This document shows, one piece after another, positions 36 through 11,678 of a stretch of DNA of 64,000 nucleotides. Source of the DNA: Arthrobacter pascens (GTDB taxonomy: Bacteria > Actinomycetota > Actinomycetes > Actinomycetales > Micrococcaceae). The notes below the pieces were generated by a model. It worked only from the letters and a program-made list of their open reading frames with translations, had not been told where the DNA came from and made no database searches. The stretch lies in the NCBI RefSeq assembly GCF_030816475.1, contig NZ_JAUSXF010000001.1, positions 682,001 through 746,000 on the forward strand, read 5' to 3'. Numbering within the stretch: position 1 is the stretch's first letter; each line of letters begins with the position of its first letter. The position numbers and the translations under genes are program-made.

Positions 36-2492
36 TCAGCTGGGCGCAACGCTCGGCTGGGGCTCCACAGCCGGTACCGTTTCAACCCCTCCGGTCCCGG
101 CCGTCCCCGTCGGAACGGCACCTGAGGTCACGGCACCTGTTGGGGCGGCGCCTGTGGGAGCCGGCGACGGCGGCGGGGCGCCTTGGGTTGCCTGGACCGT
201 GGCAGGGGTGGTGGCGGTCCCGGTACCTGCCGGACCAGGTGCCGGGCCAGTGGAACCGGGGGAGGGCGTCGAAGCCGGTCCTTCAGTTGACGGCGTTGCC
301 CCGCTGGAGCCGGTTCCTCCCGTCTGTGACGTGCTCGGGTCCGCCCGGATGATGGCGGCAATCCGGTCCTTGTATTCGGACAGCTTCGATTGGATCTCGG
401 AGAGGGGCATGTTCTGGATGTTCTGGCCGTAGTCGGCGATCTCGTCCCAGAGCGCCTCCAGCCTGGCCATGCCGCCATCGCTGAGCGGGCCGTCCAGGGT
501 GAGGACAAGTTGGCTGGCAAGCGCATACGTGAGGCAGTCGAGGCAGTTGTAGTTTGCCGCTGCGGACAGGTTCTCCGGCACCACGACGTCCGCCTGGCCG
601 ACAATCAGCACTACCTGGAATCCCACGGCCACCGCCGCGCAGCCCTGGCAGCTGGCAAAGGCATACGCCTCGTTCCTGGTGTCGACAGGCTCCCCCTCCT
701 CGGCCCACACGAGCGCGAAGGCCACGTCATAGACAACGGAACCGTCCGTCGTATTCACTGCCAGGGCCTGGTTGCCGTCCGGCTTGGGGGCGCCAGGCCT
801 GTTGAAGGGAAACACCCAGGACGGCGCCGTCGCACTGGAATCGGACGGGCCGGAACCGGTGGCGCCGGCCGGGACGGCAGCGGCACTATCCCTTGGCACC
901 AGAAGCATGCTGAGCCGCGGGCTCTCCCTGGTCGGCATCTCGGTGCCGGCCGGCCACAATGCCACTGTGTCGCCGGACTGGCCTTCCTGCAACGTGGATC
1001 CGGTCCGCGGGAAAACAGAGGCAGAGGCATCCGCGAGGGTCCCGCGTTCGTAAGGCTGGACCGGACGGTACGTCCCGCCGTCGGGCCACCATGCCCAGCC
1101 GAGGCTTGCCAGCAGCGCCGCAACGACTGCCATCGCCGCGGCACGCTGCAGCCCCTTGCCGCGGGTCTTCTGCCACATGCCGATAGTGAGTTGCCGCAGG
1201 AGACGGATGACCATGTAGGCCACGCCCGCCATGGGAAGGGCGACGGCGGCGATCGCCAGGACACGTACGGCCACACCCGCCAGATCACCGGCGGAGAGGC
1301 TTCCGGCGAGTGCGGCCTGCTGCTTGACCACGCTGGCCCAGGCCGTGCCCAGCAGCCGCGGCAGGGAAATGACCATCATGGCCATGCTGAGCAGCAGCAG
1401 CGGCACTGTGACAAGGACCCACAACGTCACGACGGCGCGTGCCCACGGCTTGAGGGCGTTCGCCTCGGGATCGCGCCAGCGCCACGGCAGCATTCCCCGG
1501 AGGGTGGGCCGGATGCGCTGGAAGAGGTCCGGGACGCCTGTTGCGTCGGCCAGGATATGGTAGCCGTCATACCGGAGCAGGGGCAGCAGCTGACGGAGCA
1601 TCTGCAGGATCTGGGTGACCACCACCAGGAGCAGGGCGTCAAGACCCGTGGCCCACCAAACGCCCGTGATCGCCACCGCCACGACGGCGTTGAAATACAG
1701 GCCGCCCAGATCGGTCCGGAGCCGGCCGATGCGGCCCAGGCGGTAGGAATCGGTGACGTCGGTATAGAAAGCCGGCCAGATCAGGTAGAGTCCTGCGCCC
1801 ATCGCCCCTGGCGTCGCGCCGCCTTTCCTCGCTGCGGCCGCGTGCCCGAACTCGTGGAAGCCCGCGGACACGAGTGTGACCGCGAAGACCAGCAGCACCA
1901 GGGCGGGGTTGGCGAAGGCCTCATGGGTGGCCGAGCCCAGTCCTTTCACCATCAGAACCCACCAGCAGGCAGCCAGGAACGCCGCCGTTACCGCCACCAC
2001 TATCAGCGGGTTGAAGAGCACAGCGAACGGCGCGGTGATCCGGCTGGTATGTTCCGGATCCGTCACGGTGTACCGGAACCGCATCCCCAGGAGCGGGTCG
2101 GCCTTCTTCACCTCCGGCTGAGACCCGTCGGACCGCCGGACCAGGCCCATGGGAAGCAGCCGGGAACTGATCAGCCTGCGGACATTGTCCGCGCTGACCA
2201 CCCTGCCGGAACCGGCGCTGGCGTAATCGGCGATCTCCTCCACGTCCCGGGTTCCGTCCGCGGCTTCCAGCATCAGGTAGAGCAGCGGGGTCAGCTGGAG
2301 CGTCTGGCCGTCGGCGCGGCGGACCAGCGACGGCGGTTCGCGGTAGCCCGAACCCCGGGACCGGCCGATGAGCTGGACGCCGTCTGCCCGCATCGGCACC
2401 TGGTTCGAACCAGCGACGACTGCAGGGACGCCTGCAGGAGAGAACGACGGCGGGTCCGCCTGAGGGCGCGGCCCGCCGTGCGCGGTGGTCAT
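36..2492 (-). CDS. PqqD-like domain / M50 membrane zinc metalloprotease (peptide zinc metalloprotease type)
   Basis: An 818-residue membrane protein. Residues about 38-125 have the winged-helix pattern of PqqD/RRE peptide-binding domains, with the ADGTRDVEEIA core. Hydrophobic segments follow, and the M50 zinc motif HEFGH is at 213-217; the distal ligand motif LLRYDGYHIL (Asp309) matches YydH-type peptide zinc metalloproteases. Further membrane segments lie at about 355-380, 405-435 and 450-468. A presumed extracytoplasmic domain carries two CxxC pairs (C615/C618 and C650/C653) and ends in a Ser/Thr/Pro/Gly tail. Its start lies 6 nt downstream of the repeat-protein gene, so the two are very likely co-transcribed. 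The family reading is firm. The peptide substrate, probably the neighbouring repeat protein, is inferred. Confidence 0.85.
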   Translation of the reverse strand: MTTAHGGPRPQADPPSFSPAGVPAVVAGSNQVPMRADGVQLIGRSRGSGYREPPSLVRRADGQTLQLTPLLYLMLEAADGTRDVEEIADYASAGSGRVVSADNVRRLISSRLLPMGLVRRSDGSQPEVKKADPLLGMRFRYTVTDPEHTSRITAPFAVLFNPLIVVAVTAAFLAACWWVLMVKGLGSATHEAFANPALVLLVFAVTLVSAGFHEFGHAAAARKGGATPGAMGAGLYLIWPAFYTDVTDSYRLGRIGRLRTDLGGLYFNAVVAVAITGVWWATGLDALLLVVVTQILQMLRQLLPLLRYDGYHILADATGVPDLFQRIRPTLRGMLPWRWRDPEANALKPWARAVVTLWVLVTVPLLLLSMAMMVISLPRLLGTAWASVVKQQAALAGSLSAGDLAGVAVRVLAIAAVALPMAGVAYMVIRLLRQLTIGMWQKTRGKGLQRAAAMAVVAALLASLGWAWWPDGGTYRPVQPYERGTLADASASVFPRTGSTLQEGQSGDTVALWPAGTEMPTRESPRLSMLLVPRDSAAAVPAGATGSGPSDSSATAPSWVFPFNRPGAPKPDGNQALAVNTTDGSVVYDVAFALVWAEEGEPVDTRNEAYAFASCQGCAAVAVGFQVVLIVGQADVVVPENLSAAANYNCLDCLTYALASQLVLTLDGPLSDGGMARLEALWDEIADYGQNIQNMPLSEIQSKLSEYKDRIAAIIRADPSTSQTGGTGSSGATPSTEGPASTPSPGSTGPAPGPAGTGTATTPATVQATQGAPPPSPAPTGAAPTGAVTSGAVPTGTAGTGGVETVPAVEPQPSVAPS

Positions 2493-2498
2493 CCGGGC

Positions 2499-3170
2499 TT
2501 ACTGTTCGAGATCGGACTGCTGGTCGGCCGAGGCTGTGGCTCCGCCCTCGATGTGCTGCGAAAGGATGGCGTCCTGGTCTGCCACCGCGTAGGACTGGCT
2601 GTCTATGGAGCCGATGTTGGCCGCCACGGCCGCGTCGATCGGGGCAGCCACGTTGGCATTGGCGGCCACCGCGCCGTTGATCGGGGCAGCGATGTCAGCG
2701 TCGGCGGCGAGGTCAACGTTGACATTAAGGAGGTCTCCGTCAAGTGCCGCGGCAGGATCGACCGGCAGCGCACCGACGTCGGGCGTTGTAGCGCCAGGCA
2801 ACGTACTGTCCGTGGTTCCTGCGGCGGGTTCAGTGCCGCCGACAGCGTCGTTGCCCTGGCCGATCGTGCTGTCCTGGACGGAGTCGGCGGACGCGTCCGC
2901 CACGATGCCCTGGTCGATCATGACGCCCTGATCCGCCAGCGCCTGGGACTCGGAACCGAAGGACAGGATGTTGGCCGAGGCCGCAGCATCAATGGGTGCT
3001 GCCACGTTCGCATTGGCTGCAACCGCCAGGTCGATGGGGGCCGCGGCATCAATGCCGAGGTCCAGATCCGCGTTCAGGTCCAGAACGGATGCCACTTCCT
3101 TGTCCGGCAATGCTGTGGCCTGCTCTGCTTCGAGTTCGTCGTCAGTCAATGGATTCTGTTCGTGTTCCAT
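2499..3170 (-). CDS. Small acidic two-repeat protein with leader-like N-terminus; candidate precursor or substrate of the adjacent protease
   Basis: The start at 3170 is set by GGAGG ten bases upstream; a longer frame to 3245 has no ribosome site. The 223-residue product has no Cys, no signal peptide and no membrane segment. Residues 1-32 are acidic and leader-like (ELEAEQATALPDKEVASVL). Residues 43-68 and 161-186 are a repeat of 26 residues with 22 identical, built on AAPIxxAVAANANVAAPIDA. Each copy is followed by a Ser-rich, ADQ-containing segment. A Gly/Thr/Pro linker joins them. It is the first gene of the operon with the PqqD-M50 protease. I recognise no family; a peptide precursor or secreted repeat protein is inferred from layout only. 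Confidence 0.75.
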   Translation of the reverse strand: MEHEQNPLTDDELEAEQATALPDKEVASVLDLNADLDLGIDAAAPIDLAVAANANVAAPIDAAASANILSFGSESQALADQGVMIDQGIVADASADSVQDSTIGQGNDAVGGTEPAAGTTDSTLPGATTPDVGALPVDPAAALDGDLLNVNVDLAADADIAAPINGAVAANANVAAPIDAAVAANIGSIDSQSYAVADQDAILSQHIEGGATASADQQSDLEQ

Positions 3171-3234
3171 GTTCGCGCAACCTCCAGTCCGGCGCGGGTC
3201 GGCCTGCCCCCAGCGGGCAGGCCAGCGCCAGACA

Positions 3235-3254
3235 ATAGTAAGCATGATTAGCTT
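3235..3254. promoter_or_regulatory. Palindrome-like element A (TAAGC-x-TG-x-TTAGC)
   Basis: About 65 bp upstream of the repeat-protein start lies ATAGTAAGCATGATTAGCTT. Read in the opposite orientation, the element at 12746-12765 matches it at 16 of 20 positions. Both are imperfect copies of CTAAGCATGCTTAG. It is a probable regulator site; the protein that binds it is unknown. Confidence 0.4.
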
Positions 3255-8112: not shown

Positions 8113-8792
8113 TCAGAACCCTGGTAGTCGATGATGATTTCCGGGTGGCCGCCATCCACGCCGCGCGGTTGGGCAGGGTTGATGGTTTCGAATGCGTCGG
8201 TGAGGTGTACACCGCCGCTGCCGCACGTGAGGCCATCGACCGTCTGGCCCCGGAATTGCTCCTGTTGGACGTCCATCTTCCGGACGAGGACGGGATTTCA
8301 CTCCTGCGTTCCCTGCAGGCTGCGGGCAGCCAGGTTGATTGCATCATCATTACCGCTGCGCGGGACCTTGCCACCGTCCGCTCGGCGATGAGCAGCGGAG
8401 CCGTCTACTACCTGGTCAAGCCCTTCAGTTTCGACCAGTTGCGCATCCAGCTTGAGGCCTACCGACGCTGGCGGGACGAACTGGCGTCATCTGCCCGCGG
8501 TGACCAGGCCACCGTTGACAGCCTTTACAACCTGCGGCGTGCCGTCGTCCAACCACCAGCCGGCCCGACACCCCGGCTGCAGCCCACCATGCAGAAGGTT
8601 TTTGACGCTGTGCGGTCGTCGCCAAAACCGGTGGGCGCGGCGGACATCGCCGAGAAGCTGGGAGTGAGCCGCCCGACGGCGCAGCGCTACCTGGGAGCCC
8701 TTGAACGCAAGGGACTGATAGACCTCGATCTTGCCTACGGGACCACCGGGCGCCCCATCAACTCGTATACCGCCAAACCGGGAGCCCTGTAG
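8109..8792 (+). CDS. CitB/DcuR-type response regulator
   Basis: A 227-residue regulator, translationally coupled to the sensor kinase. The receiver domain has the acidic pocket VVDDDF, the phosphoacceptor Asp in LLLLDVHLPDEDG, the Thr/Ser in IIITAARD and Lys in YYLVKPFSF. The C-terminal helix-turn-helix (DIAEKLGVSRPTAQRYLGAL) is the DcuR/CitB type. It likely activates the divergent ABC importer in response to the ligand seen by the kinase; this is inferred from adjacency. Confidence 0.88.
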   Translation: MIRTLVVDDDFRVAAIHAARLGRVDGFECVGEVYTAAAAREAIDRLAPELLLLDVHLPDEDGISLLRSLQAAGSQVDCIIITAARDLATVRSAMSSGAVYYLVKPFSFDQLRIQLEAYRRWRDELASSARGDQATVDSLYNLRRAVVQPPAGPTPRLQPTMQKVFDAVRSSPKPVGAADIAEKLGVSRPTAQRYLGALERKGLIDLDLAYGTTGRPINSYTAKPGAL

Positions 8793-8934
8793 CCCACCGC
8801 TGTCACGGCCAGACAGTCGCTCTGCCTGAAGGCTCCGGAGACCGTTGACGGCCCGCGGCGCCGGGGCCAAACTGGCGCTGTGCCCAGGTACCGGCAGAGC
8901 CGCTCCGGCGCCGGGCGTTTCTAAGGAGAACCCG

Positions 8935-9402
8935 ATGCCCACGGTAGAAGAGAGTATTTTCATTGCCCGTCCTCCACAGGAGGTCTTCAATTTCCTGGCA
9001 AAGAGCGAGAACATCCCCGTCTGGGATTCCTCTGCTCTGCATGTCGAAACGGTCGGGGACGATCCCGTCGGACTGGGCACGCGCGCCCAGGGCACCAGCA
9101 AGGTAGTCGGACGGAAATTCGACTGGACCACCGAGGTGACAGAATTCGATCCTCCCCGTCGCTTCACGTCAAAGTCCGTGGAGGGACAGCTGGACTTCAC
9201 GGTTACCAACACCCTGGAACCCGAAGGCGACGGTACGCGCCTGACCTTCAGGATCGATGCTGCATCCGGGCTGGGCGGGGTGTTCGGAAAGCTCGCTGAC
9301 CGTTTCGTGGAGAGCGCCCAGGCCCGTACTGTCCGCGCCAACCTTGAGACGCTATCCGAGTTGCTGACTGAGCACCCTGAGCTCGGCAGCGAGGAAGGCT
9401 AG
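8935..9402 (+). CDS. SRPBCC-fold (polyketide cyclase/START-like) protein
   Basis: A 155-residue protein starting at 8935, with AAGGAGAA five bases upstream. An upstream in-frame extension lacks a ribosome site. It shows the SRPBCC helix-grip pattern: SIFIARPPQEVFNFLAKSEN at the N-terminus, the WTTEVTEFDPPRRF strands, and a long C-terminal helix (RTVRANLETLSELL). Such proteins bind hydrophobic ligands; no ligand or enzymatic residue can be assigned. It appears monocistronic and convergent with the S9 peptidase. Confidence 0.8.
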   Translation: MPTVEESIFIARPPQEVFNFLAKSENIPVWDSSALHVETVGDDPVGLGTRAQGTSKVVGRKFDWTTEVTEFDPPRRFTSKSVEGQLDFTVTNTLEPEGDGTRLTFRIDAASGLGGVFGKLADRFVESAQARTVRANLETLSELLTEHPELGSEEG

Positions 9403-9434
9403 CGCGAGGCTCAGAGCAAGGAAGCTTCCGCGCC

Positions 9435-11678
9435 CTACTTCAGTCCGGCTCCGGGAAGCAGCTCCCTCGCGCCCAGCGAATCTGCGATGAATGCGTAGTC
9501 CCAGGCACGCTCGCGCCACTGCACATACCGTCCGGAGGCGCCGCCGTGGCCGCCTTCCATCTCGATCTTCATGACGACTGGCTGGTCCCCGGTGGTCTTG
9601 TTACGCAGCTCCTGGACCCATTTGGCAGGCTCTACATACAGGACCCGGGTGTCGTTGAACGACGTGACAGCGGCGATCTTCGGGTAGGCCACCTCCTGCA
9701 CGTTTTCGTAGGGCGAATATGACTTCATGTAGGCGTACACCTGGGGATCCGTGATGGGGTTGCCCCACTCCTCCCATTCCAGGGCGGAGAGCGGCAGGTC
9801 AGGGTCCAGGATGCTGGTGAGGGGGTCCACGAACGGTACCTGGGCCACGACTGCGGCGTACTTTTCCGGGGCGAGATTCGCCACGGCGCCCATGAGGAGC
9901 CCGCCGGCGGAGCCGCCCAGCGCCGCAATCCGGGACGGGTCCACCCATCCCGAGTCCGCCAGCCAGTCGGTGGCGGCTATGAAGTCGGTGAAAGTGTTGT
10001 GCTTGGCTAGCTTCTTGCCGTCCTCGTACCAGTGCCTGCCGAGCTCACCGCCGCCGCGGATGTGGGCGATCACGAATACTACGCCCCGGTCCAGCAGCGA
10101 CAGCCGCGCAATTCCAAATCCTGGATCCATGCTCAGCTCGTAGGAGCCGTAGCCGTAAACCAGCCCGGCCGCCGTCGAATCCTGCTTGACGGCCTTGTGC
10201 CGCAGCACCGACAGCGGGATCCTGGTGCCGTCCGCGGCGTCGGCCCACTCCCGGGTTGCCACGTAATCGTCCGCCGAGTAGCCGCCCAGTACCGGGCTCT
10301 CCTTGCGAAGCAGCAGTTCCCCGGCGGGCTTTTCCGGCGTGGGCAGCACAAAGTCGTACACGCGCGACGGCGTGAAGTAGGAAGTGTAGCCGAGCCTGAT
10401 CACGGGAGCCTCGAAGTCTGAGCCGCCCACCCCGGCGGTATAGAGCTCCTCGTCGAAAGCCGGCTCGACGGGGGCCTGCTGCCCGGAGGTGCCCAGGCCC
10501 TCGAGGCCAAGCACCTGCACCCGCTCGATGGTGTCCTTACGGACGGACACGATGAGGTGCGTGGACGTGACACCGGCGCCGTTGACCCGGACGTCGTCGG
10601 AATGCTCGACGACGGTGTCCCAGTGCTGCTCCGCCAGCGGCTTGCTGAGCTGGGCGGGGTCCGCCAGGGAGACCATGGAGTTGATGGCGCCCCGGTTGTG
10701 CGTCAGGAGGATCCGCTCGGATTTTTCGCCGTCGGGGCCGGCCAGCAGGAAGGGCTCCGCTTCATACAGGACGCGTTCATTTCGTGAAATGACCGTAGTC
10801 AGGGCGGCGGTGGGATCATCGAAGCGCAGCAGGCGGGTTTCGCTGTATTCGGAGCAGCCGATGCCCAGCACGAGGTAACGCCTGTCCGCGGAGAGCTCGA
10901 AACCCAGCCACATGGCGGCGTCGTCCTCCTGGTAAATCACCTCATCGTCGGTGACCGGAGTGCCCAGGACATGGGACTTGACCTGGTACGGCCGCCAGGA
11001 ATCATCCACCACCGTGTAGAAGATCCGGCTGCCGTCGGGCGAGAAGGAGATGCCGTAGAAGATGTTCTCAATGACATCCGGCAACGGTTCGCCGGTCCTG
11101 AGGTCCTTGATGTGGAGGGTGAAGCGTTCGTCGCCGGAGTTGTCCACGGCGTACGCGTACAGATTCCCGTCCACAGTGACTGCTGAGCCCCCGATGGAGA
11201 AGAAGGGCTTACCCTCGGCCTCGATGTTGCCGTCCAGCAGGACTTCCTCGCCCGGAATTTCGACGCCGGCCTCCACCGCCGGGGGAGTCCAGTCGGCCAC
11301 CGGATCGCCGGTGCTTGAGGCCTTGACGCGGCACTGGATGCCGTACTCCTTGCCTTCCACCGAGCGGCTGAAGTACCACCAGTCGTCCTTGCGGTTCGGA
11401 ACGGACAGGTCTGTCTCCTGGGTCCGGCCCTTGATTTCCTGGAATATGGCCTCGCGCAGCGGTTCCTGGTGTGCCGTGACTGCTTCCTGGTAGGCGTTCT
11501 CGGCCTTGAGGTGCTCCACCACTTCCGGGGAATCCTTCTCCCGCAGCCACTCGTAGTTGTCCACGAAAGTGTCGCCGTGATGCGTGCGCTCCGTCGGGAC
11601 CTTCTTGGCTACCGGCGGCCGGGCTGAAGCAGTCGTGGCGGAGTTGCTGGCGGAATCCTGCAGCGGAGTCTGGGTCAT
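9435..11678 (-). CDS. ptrB: Prolyl oligopeptidase family S9A serine peptidase (oligopeptidase B type)
   Basis: A 747-residue cytosolic peptidase. The N-terminal motif THHGDTFVDNYEWLREKD and the seven-bladed propeller are followed by an alpha/beta hydrolase domain. The nucleophile is in GGSAGGLLMG, the Asp in SFNDTRVLY, and the His in EGGHGGASGR. It cleaves short peptides, after basic residues in characterised oligopeptidase B. The start at 11678 lacks a strong ribosome site, but a TATATT box lies six bases before the ATG, which suggests a leaderless transcript. A longer frame to 11828 looks non-coding. Confidence 0.87.
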   Translation of the reverse strand: MTQTPLQDSASNSATTASARPPVAKKVPTERTHHGDTFVDNYEWLREKDSPEVVEHLKAENAYQEAVTAHQEPLREAIFQEIKGRTQETDLSVPNRKDDWWYFSRSVEGKEYGIQCRVKASSTGDPVADWTPPAVEAGVEIPGEEVLLDGNIEAEGKPFFSIGGSAVTVDGNLYAYAVDNSGDERFTLHIKDLRTGEPLPDVIENIFYGISFSPDGSRIFYTVVDDSWRPYQVKSHVLGTPVTDDEVIYQEDDAAMWLGFELSADRRYLVLGIGCSEYSETRLLRFDDPTAALTTVISRNERVLYEAEPFLLAGPDGEKSERILLTHNRGAINSMVSLADPAQLSKPLAEQHWDTVVEHSDDVRVNGAGVTSTHLIVSVRKDTIERVQVLGLEGLGTSGQQAPVEPAFDEELYTAGVGGSDFEAPVIRLGYTSYFTPSRVYDFVLPTPEKPAGELLLRKESPVLGGYSADDYVATREWADAADGTRIPLSVLRHKAVKQDSTAAGLVYGYGSYELSMDPGFGIARLSLLDRGVVFVIAHIRGGGELGRHWYEDGKKLAKHNTFTDFIAATDWLADSGWVDPSRIAALGGSAGGLLMGAVANLAPEKYAAVVAQVPFVDPLTSILDPDLPLSALEWEEWGNPITDPQVYAYMKSYSPYENVQEVAYPKIAAVTSFNDTRVLYVEPAKWVQELRNKTTGDQPVVMKIEMEGGHGGASGRYVQWRERAWDYAFIADSLGARELLPGAGLK

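Follow-up and report, generated by a model that had tools for sequence, protein, structure and literature searches.

A linked pair of an RRE-M50 membrane protease and a leader-bearing repeat protein in Arthrobacter pascens and other Actinomycetota, with a possible role in the release of beta-forming surface peptides

The DNA analysed in this study (the window; 64,000 nucleotides, G000:C1:682001-746000) comes from the 4.68-Mb genome of Arthrobacter pascens, and close to its first position lie the two minus-strand genes that concern us here. One encodes a membrane protease that joins an RRE-like domain to an M50 core, and the other, directly upstream of it, encodes a partner protein with a leader-like N-terminus followed by two modules. 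The original prediction for this DNA placed a 223-residue partner without cysteine 6 nt before the protease, and the open reading frame (ORF) calls bear this out, 6 nt separating the partner stop codon from the protease start. The protease gene has one match in the whole genome.

36..2492, minus strand: RRE-M50 membrane protease, 818 residues
2499..3170, minus strand: leader-bearing two-module repeat protein (the partner), 223 residues, Cys-free

The pairing of these genes is real and widespread. With each species represented by one genome, a scan gave 309 relatives of the protease, and the best 80, which were kept and examined, come from Arthrobacter, Pseudarthrobacter, Sinomonas, Nocardioides, Phycicoccus, Pedococcus, Mycetocola, Naasia, Agromyces, Kribbella, Mycolicibacterium, Planosporangium and others. 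In 79 of these best 80 the partner profile matches a same-strand ORF directly upstream of the protease, which bears on the question, raised with the original prediction, of whether such a repeat protein stands beside RRE-M50 proteases. The partner at the remaining locus (L054:7770-7931, plus strand) is truncated to its 3′ end and abuts an opposite-strand sequence that reads as aminotransferase-like, the result of either a rearrangement or an assembly join. Seen from the partner's side, a sample of 396 genomes of the phylum Actinomycetota searched at E 0.001 contained the partner in 19 (in G237 only at 9.4e-4); 18 of these also have the protease, adjacent in 17, so in this sample the repeat protein is not widespread without it, a pattern that would have counted against the original prediction. 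The protease of G167 is on a different contig from the partner, and none was found in the 250-contig draft of G006. The two-module form occurs in eight of the 19 genomes, four of them outside the class of the window, and has the protease next to it in all eight; the 11 genomes with other forms are all outside that class, and in nine of them the partner lies beside the protease, twice divergently. The range of the pair thus takes in Arthrobacter and its kin, mycobacteria, Nocardioides, Kribbella, Planosporangium and other actinobacterial classes. In a neighbour test on 35 loci, ORFs of at least 90 residues were picked greedily by length, a procedure that recovered the partner in 15 and the protease in 32. 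This test, which is blind to small genes, gave no third gene family in five or more neighbourhoods save antisense shadow ORFs (19/35), one further family in four, and no sign of a larger operon, a setting that would likewise have counted against the original prediction. Two irregularities were seen among the 80 loci. In Arthrobacter sp. OVS8 (L048:8034-8267 and 8345-10363, plus strand) the protease frame downstream of the partner is split in two, by sequencing error or decay, and at two loci (L006:6236-7090 and L016:6349-7143, plus strand) an extra free-standing copy of the last transmembrane segment and the four-cysteine (Cys4) domain lies upstream of the partner, by its look a partial duplication.

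The domains of the protease are as follows.

2127..2396, minus strand: RRE/PqqD-like domain, residues 33-122, assigned by fold (which covers about 31-122)
1842..1856, minus strand: HEFGH, M50 zinc-binding motif, residues 213-217
1566..1568, minus strand: D309, in the second M50 motif (RYDGYHILAD), invariant in the 40-relative and 15-sequence alignments
483..824, minus strand: outer Cys4 domain, residues 557-670, with C615, C618, C650 and C653
39..332, minus strand: variable tail rich in Pro, Thr and Ala, residues 721-818, 26% mean pairwise identity

RRE domains act in the biosynthesis of ribosomally synthesized and post-translationally modified peptides (RiPPs): they hand the peptide over to the enzymes that modify it or to the peptidases that remove its leader. 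A PqqD-like winged helix fused to an M50 core had been predicted here, and at the level of fold and motifs this description stands. The N-terminal domain has the winged-helix fold of an RRE, with three strands and three helices, and its top structural matches are lasso-peptide RREs with bound leaders; the M50 core has the site-2 protease (S2P) fold, with HExxH and a downstream Asp in membrane helices. At the level of sequence the PqqD profile match (3g2b) reaches only E 0.18 and is ranked behind unrelated chains (E 0.08-0.1), and Pfam gives no match to an RRE or PqqD-like domain in the protease. HEFGH, D309 and the two CxxC pairs of the outer domain, all named in the prediction, are confirmed by their conservation in 40 diverse relatives: H213, E214, G216, D309 and the four cysteines are invariant, F215 and H217 are kept at 90% or more, and H213, E214 and D309 are also invariant in a 15-sequence alignment that includes very distant relatives. 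Of the three domains the M50 core is the best conserved among the 40 (73% mean pairwise identity), ahead of the Cys4 domain (66%) and the RRE domain (61%). Foldseek returned nothing at E 0.001, with S2P 3b4r at E 0.46 (probability 0.84), SkfB at E 5.6 (probability 0.41) and the outer domain barely covered. Pfam Peptidase_M50 (PF02163) does not match the window protease at E 1 and scores distant relatives at 10-16 bits against a cut-off of 27.2, no Pfam or NCBIfam model reaches its cut-off on the Cys4 domain, and PDB sequence searches with alignments A3 (protease relatives) and A4 gave nothing useful.

The partner is divided as follows.

3072..3149, minus strand: leader-like region, L..DEL...LPDKEVxSxLDLN, residues 8-33
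2856..3071, minus strand: module 1, residues 34-105
2967..3044, minus strand: 26-residue repeat, copy 1, residues 43-68
2745..2855, minus strand: variable linker, residues 106-142, 24% mean pairwise identity
2502..2735, minus strand: module 2, residues 146-223
2613..2690, minus strand: 26-residue repeat, copy 2, residues 161-186, matching copy 1 at 22 of 26 positions

The two repeats had been noticed before and are found again here as the centres of two homologous modules of about 75-80 residues that can be aligned nearly end to end (local alignment score 178.5; best of 1000 shuffles 100.5). The N-terminus had been called leader-like on account of the letters LPDKEVASVL, and conservation in 40 relatives supports this: mean pairwise identity is 88% at leader residues 20-33, 81-86% in the AAPID halves of the modules, 59% in their second halves and lowest in the linker. 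Here and in related loci the gene-encoded precursor carries a conserved leader and a separate core, as do those of RiPPs in the broad sense. The AAPID segments alternate polar and apolar residues with a period near two in all 40 rows, for module 1 and module 2 alike (p<0.05, the rows being related and the tests not independent), and a helical period is seen in none of the 40, which led us to reject an amphipathic helix in the modules. The structure model of the partner is poor (pLDDT 51.9), with strands confined to the second halves of the modules. Its highest 19-residue hydropathy mean is 1.25, no Sec signal peptide is seen, and it matches no Pfam or NCBIfam model above cut-off; the label 'peptidoglycan-binding protein', carried by many relatives in their source records, is backed by no Pfam domain. 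The earlier proposal that the protease cuts within or between the repeats was not upheld, and cleavage between them was rejected as unsupported, given the poorly conserved linker, the lack of a second leader before module 2, and single-module relatives that each have one. The two-module precursors of L122 and L123 carry a leader-like scrap (DEM.., DEEL) ahead of module 2, where an inter-module cut could still occur.

Our strongest argument for recognition of the leader concerns precursors that keep it and differ in everything else. The window protease matches three records of a plasmid collection, the closest being two Streptomyces plasmids whose proteases are about 40% identical to it over 44-54% of its length. 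On one of these (L142) the gene before the protease encodes a MNTDQLDAETAELLPGREALG... leader and then a Ser/Asn/Gln-rich core, and a Cys4-like gene with one Cys pair of different spacing follows the protease; on the other (L143) a FEELNKLAGELLPERAVLSAF leader is followed by a Gly-rich core, twice. The leader type (L...LPxR) is thus kept on both plasmids with cores completely unlike that of the window. Second protease copies adjoin ELPDREMMALVNIQ...VVVQVPIGVAANVCGVDANVLAQQ in G237 and DLSKELAIQLPSRRLMATISVLGLPLLG... in G124, and in an alignment of 17 precursors, hand-chosen from these loci, only the EL and LPxR positions reach 90%. One leader type with divergent cores suggests that this protease family recognises the leader and not the core, and the comparison supports such a leader logic well. 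Beside a second RRE-M50 copy lies a precursor-like ORF (L146:3364-3552, minus strand) with a leader and a hydrophobic core (TISVLGLPLLGVSDVGVNVD...), which may be a different product class. A mobile origin was not adopted, as 60 pattern matches in viral contigs contained no confirmed relative and the plasmid collection added only the three records; with distant proteases as queries, weaker M50 matches appear on plasmids of non-actinobacterial groups.

The distant forms, studied in 11 genomes of other classes, share the leader of the window partner in a different arrangement. Here one to four ORFs, most of them 64-80 residues long and each with its own leader (for example LSxEELExQxGExLPDREEMSL), take the place of the single partner gene, with two to four precursors in 10 of the 11 loci and modules such as NANVAAPVNAAVAANVLSDDSVAYANAEQDVDIDQST in 10 of the 11 genomes. 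Among 30 precursor ORFs chosen from these loci (two of which hold two modules; a long shadow ORF and small SSRQR genes were left out), [L/V]Px[R/K] occurs in 26 and ELE, at any position, in 20. The distant protease is shorter, and the Cys4 domain is a separate gene in five of the 11 loci (L115, L118, L119, L120 and L121), a count made on the available sequence, since several contigs stop inside the protease. By reading, at least four of these separate genes have a signal-peptide-like start. The existence of fused and separate forms suggests that the protease and the Cys4 domain work together. The original prediction of a minimal two-gene system holds as far as a dedicated, linked pair is concerned, but it does not describe every form: the one to four precursor ORFs of these 11 genomes are joined in five by a separate Cys4 gene and in several by an extra small gene. 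This small gene (VNAxVxANVG...SSRQRxVxRNG; L115:6607-6897, minus; L116:1804-2064, plus; L117:6740-6988, plus; L118:7527-7859, minus; L119:7828-8055, minus; L144:8263-8520, minus) adjoins precursor arrays or the protease, and most copies have a core-like VNAxVxANV motif and no leader. In three loci (L119:3666-4442, minus; L120:2998-3843, plus; L121:3961-4764, minus) the gene after the Cys4 gene reads as lipoprotein-like, and Pfam gives it no match above cut-off.

We propose that the pair, guided by the leader, processes its precursor in the membrane and releases beta-forming surface peptides that may resemble chaplins, and we would give this reading about an even chance. It starts from what was computed, namely the linkage of the two genes, folds like those of an RRE and an S2P, conservation of the catalytic residues, a leader shared by divergent cores, and beta periodicity. 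The partner would be made in the cytosol with its N-terminal leader (EL...LPxK/R-E), to which the RRE domain of the protease very probably binds. The M50 core would then remove the leader at the membrane, a step we consider probable, and the remainder, here one two-module polypeptide, may, at about even odds, pass to the outer face through or by the protease. According to a review of leader proteases (PMC10885120), EpeP is thought both to cut and to export, which makes a system without an exporter of its own plausible. The Cys4 domain, fused here and separate elsewhere, might receive or anchor the product, and the strict alternation of polar and apolar residues could let the product form a beta-rich extracellular layer with a chaplin-like role; that it is a structural surface component seems to us about as probable as the contrary. 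Several points weigh against the proposal: no cut site was located, its support is computational, and the partner has no membrane-spanning stretch.

One alternative is a RiPP with an antimicrobial or signalling function, modified lightly or not at all, whose diffusible peptides the protease would release as in daptides and epipeptides. The daptide peptidase MpaP is described as an intramembrane enzyme that depends on an RRE and takes off the leader (PMC10036551), and daptide cleavage is placed after ELExxxxx (PMC12338566). The window protease resembles MpaP in the fusion of RRE to M50, in adjoining precursor genes that are often several, and in an EL(E) leader motif, to which the ELE letters and the multiple precursors of the distant loci may be added. 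A control daptide plasmid carries mpaP together with mpaB, mpaC, mpaD, mpaM, precursor genes and ABC genes; its mpaP matches 100 of 104 loci, and the C-terminal Thr of daptide precursors is found in some of the distant short ones. Among NCBIfam models the window protease scores best with daptide_HExxH (100.3 bits against a cut-off of 300) and LiaK/YydH (34.8 bits against 225), in both cases short of the cut-off. In contrast to MpaP, however, the window protease has an outer Cys4 domain, and its partner is a two-module protein of more than 220 residues that ends in Gln. A tblastn search with the mpaB, mpaC, mpaD and mpaM proteins of that plasmid, a single query set, found none of them in the 104 loci at E 1e-5, although distant relatives could escape it; this result and the low daptide_HExxH score led us to rule out a daptide cluster. 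The epipeptide enzymes EpeP/YydH/LiaK are likewise M50 proteases for a ribosomal peptide, but the window protease carries RRE and Cys4 domains in addition; no radical-SAM family was recognised among the recurring neighbour ORFs, no search aimed at radical-SAM having been made. The AAPID halves are too well conserved across genera for a typical toxin, which weakens a bioactive-peptide reading; their periodicity is that of a beta strand rather than a helix, and no immunity or exporter gene recurs in the neighbourhoods, within the limits of a test blind to small genes. We therefore regard a diffusible RiPP as rather unlikely.

A second alternative draws on the region upstream of the partner.

3191..3229, minus strand: conserved G+C-rich hairpin in the 5′ untranslated leader, before the Shine-Dalgarno sequence, fold z -3.3
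3233..3250, minus strand: promoter-like 18-mer TAATCATGCTTACTATTG, its promoter role being our inference

TAATCATGCTTACTATTG has a single match in the window with up to three mismatches allowed and none in 100 shuffles. In the genome a 17-mer of this motif has two copies, the second between a LEA-like gene (a label given by reading; Pfam has no match) and a gene for a coiled-coil membrane protein (L084, about 1500), and a 15-mer core precedes an Hva1_TUDOR gene in another Arthrobacter (L032:13638-13652). The motif-bearing genes may form a shared stress regulon, to which expression of the pair may be tied. Such neighbours, the S2P fold and LuxR-family regulator ORFs (Pfam GerE) in four of the 11 distant loci would suit a regulatory site-2-protease pair, in which the partner would act as a regulator in the cytosol or at the membrane edge and its cutting would signal envelope or osmotic stress. 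The LuxR ORFs of L116 (1072-1719, plus), L122 (5432-5911, plus) and L123 (4112-4510, minus) come from genomes of one family and lie within about 1.5 kb of the precursors, and that of L125 (12200-12862, plus) is about 5 kb off; however, they may equally control the system itself. The partner has no Pfam match, hence no DNA-binding or sigma/anti-sigma domain is seen in it, and arrays of similar precursors fit a product better than a regulator, so that this explanation, too, has little probability in our view. Least probable is that the M50 protein serves the partner chiefly as a translocation chaperone, with cutting secondary or absent. The fusion of a large outer domain to the membrane portion and the lack of a recurring separate exporter nearby (again in tests blind to small genes) would suit this, but the invariant H213, E214 and D309 would not.

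Returning to the proposal of leader-guided processing and release, the likeness of the pair to site-2 proteases such as SpoIVFB and RseP lies in the M50 fold and motifs, and its difference from them in the N-terminal RRE-like domain, the outer Cys4 domain and the dedicated leader-bearing partner. Chaplins (PF03777) share the alternating beta-type sequence with the partner, but they have a Sec signal peptide in place of an RRE-type leader, and the window partner is Cys-free and has no match to PF03777 at E 1. The core in G237 (L145) is chaplin-like by eye, with a ChpA-C (PF03777) score of 14.6 bits (E 0.03; cut-off 21). Should the product prove to be a surface layer, proteolysis guided by a leader would add another route of layer building besides the Sec-exported chaplins. 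A more tentative extension, which we hold to be doubtful, is a phylum-wide secretion route of Actinomycetota free of signal peptides, in which an RRE intramembrane protease picks cytosolic precursors by a short shared leader, cuts them and passes beta-forming peptides, chaplin-like and others, outward to the surface, and a Cys4 protein there nucleates or anchors a functional amyloid-like coat. RRE recognition logic seems in any case to serve a conserved pair here, with no modifying enzyme seen beside it. No description of the pair was found in the literature searched, whose coverage of subscription journals is thin, and two surveys of RREs (PMC12710340, PMC7470986) do not use the term 'M50' in their main texts.

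TAATCATGCTTACTATTG and the G+C-rich hairpin are highly conserved upstream of the partner in Micrococcaceae loci. Of the 80 stretches that precede the partner in the window and in 79 loci, 50 contain a looser form of the motif, CTTA[C/G]TA[T/C], the instance in L055 being probably due to chance. An Rfam search gave no credible family for the hairpin, and its covariation is weak, with a two-sided change in one of 13 pairs among 21 sequences. The upper bound of 3254 given in the original prediction takes in both elements, which by our reading are not coding; a longer ORF of 248 residues from 3245 was not preferred, as it would cross the conserved hairpin and the Shine-Dalgarno sequence. By reading, the ORFs upstream of the pair resemble an ABC import system, and just past the window edge lie a GNAT-like and an acetate-kinase-like ORF on the opposite strand. 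The pair is thus an isolated unit here.

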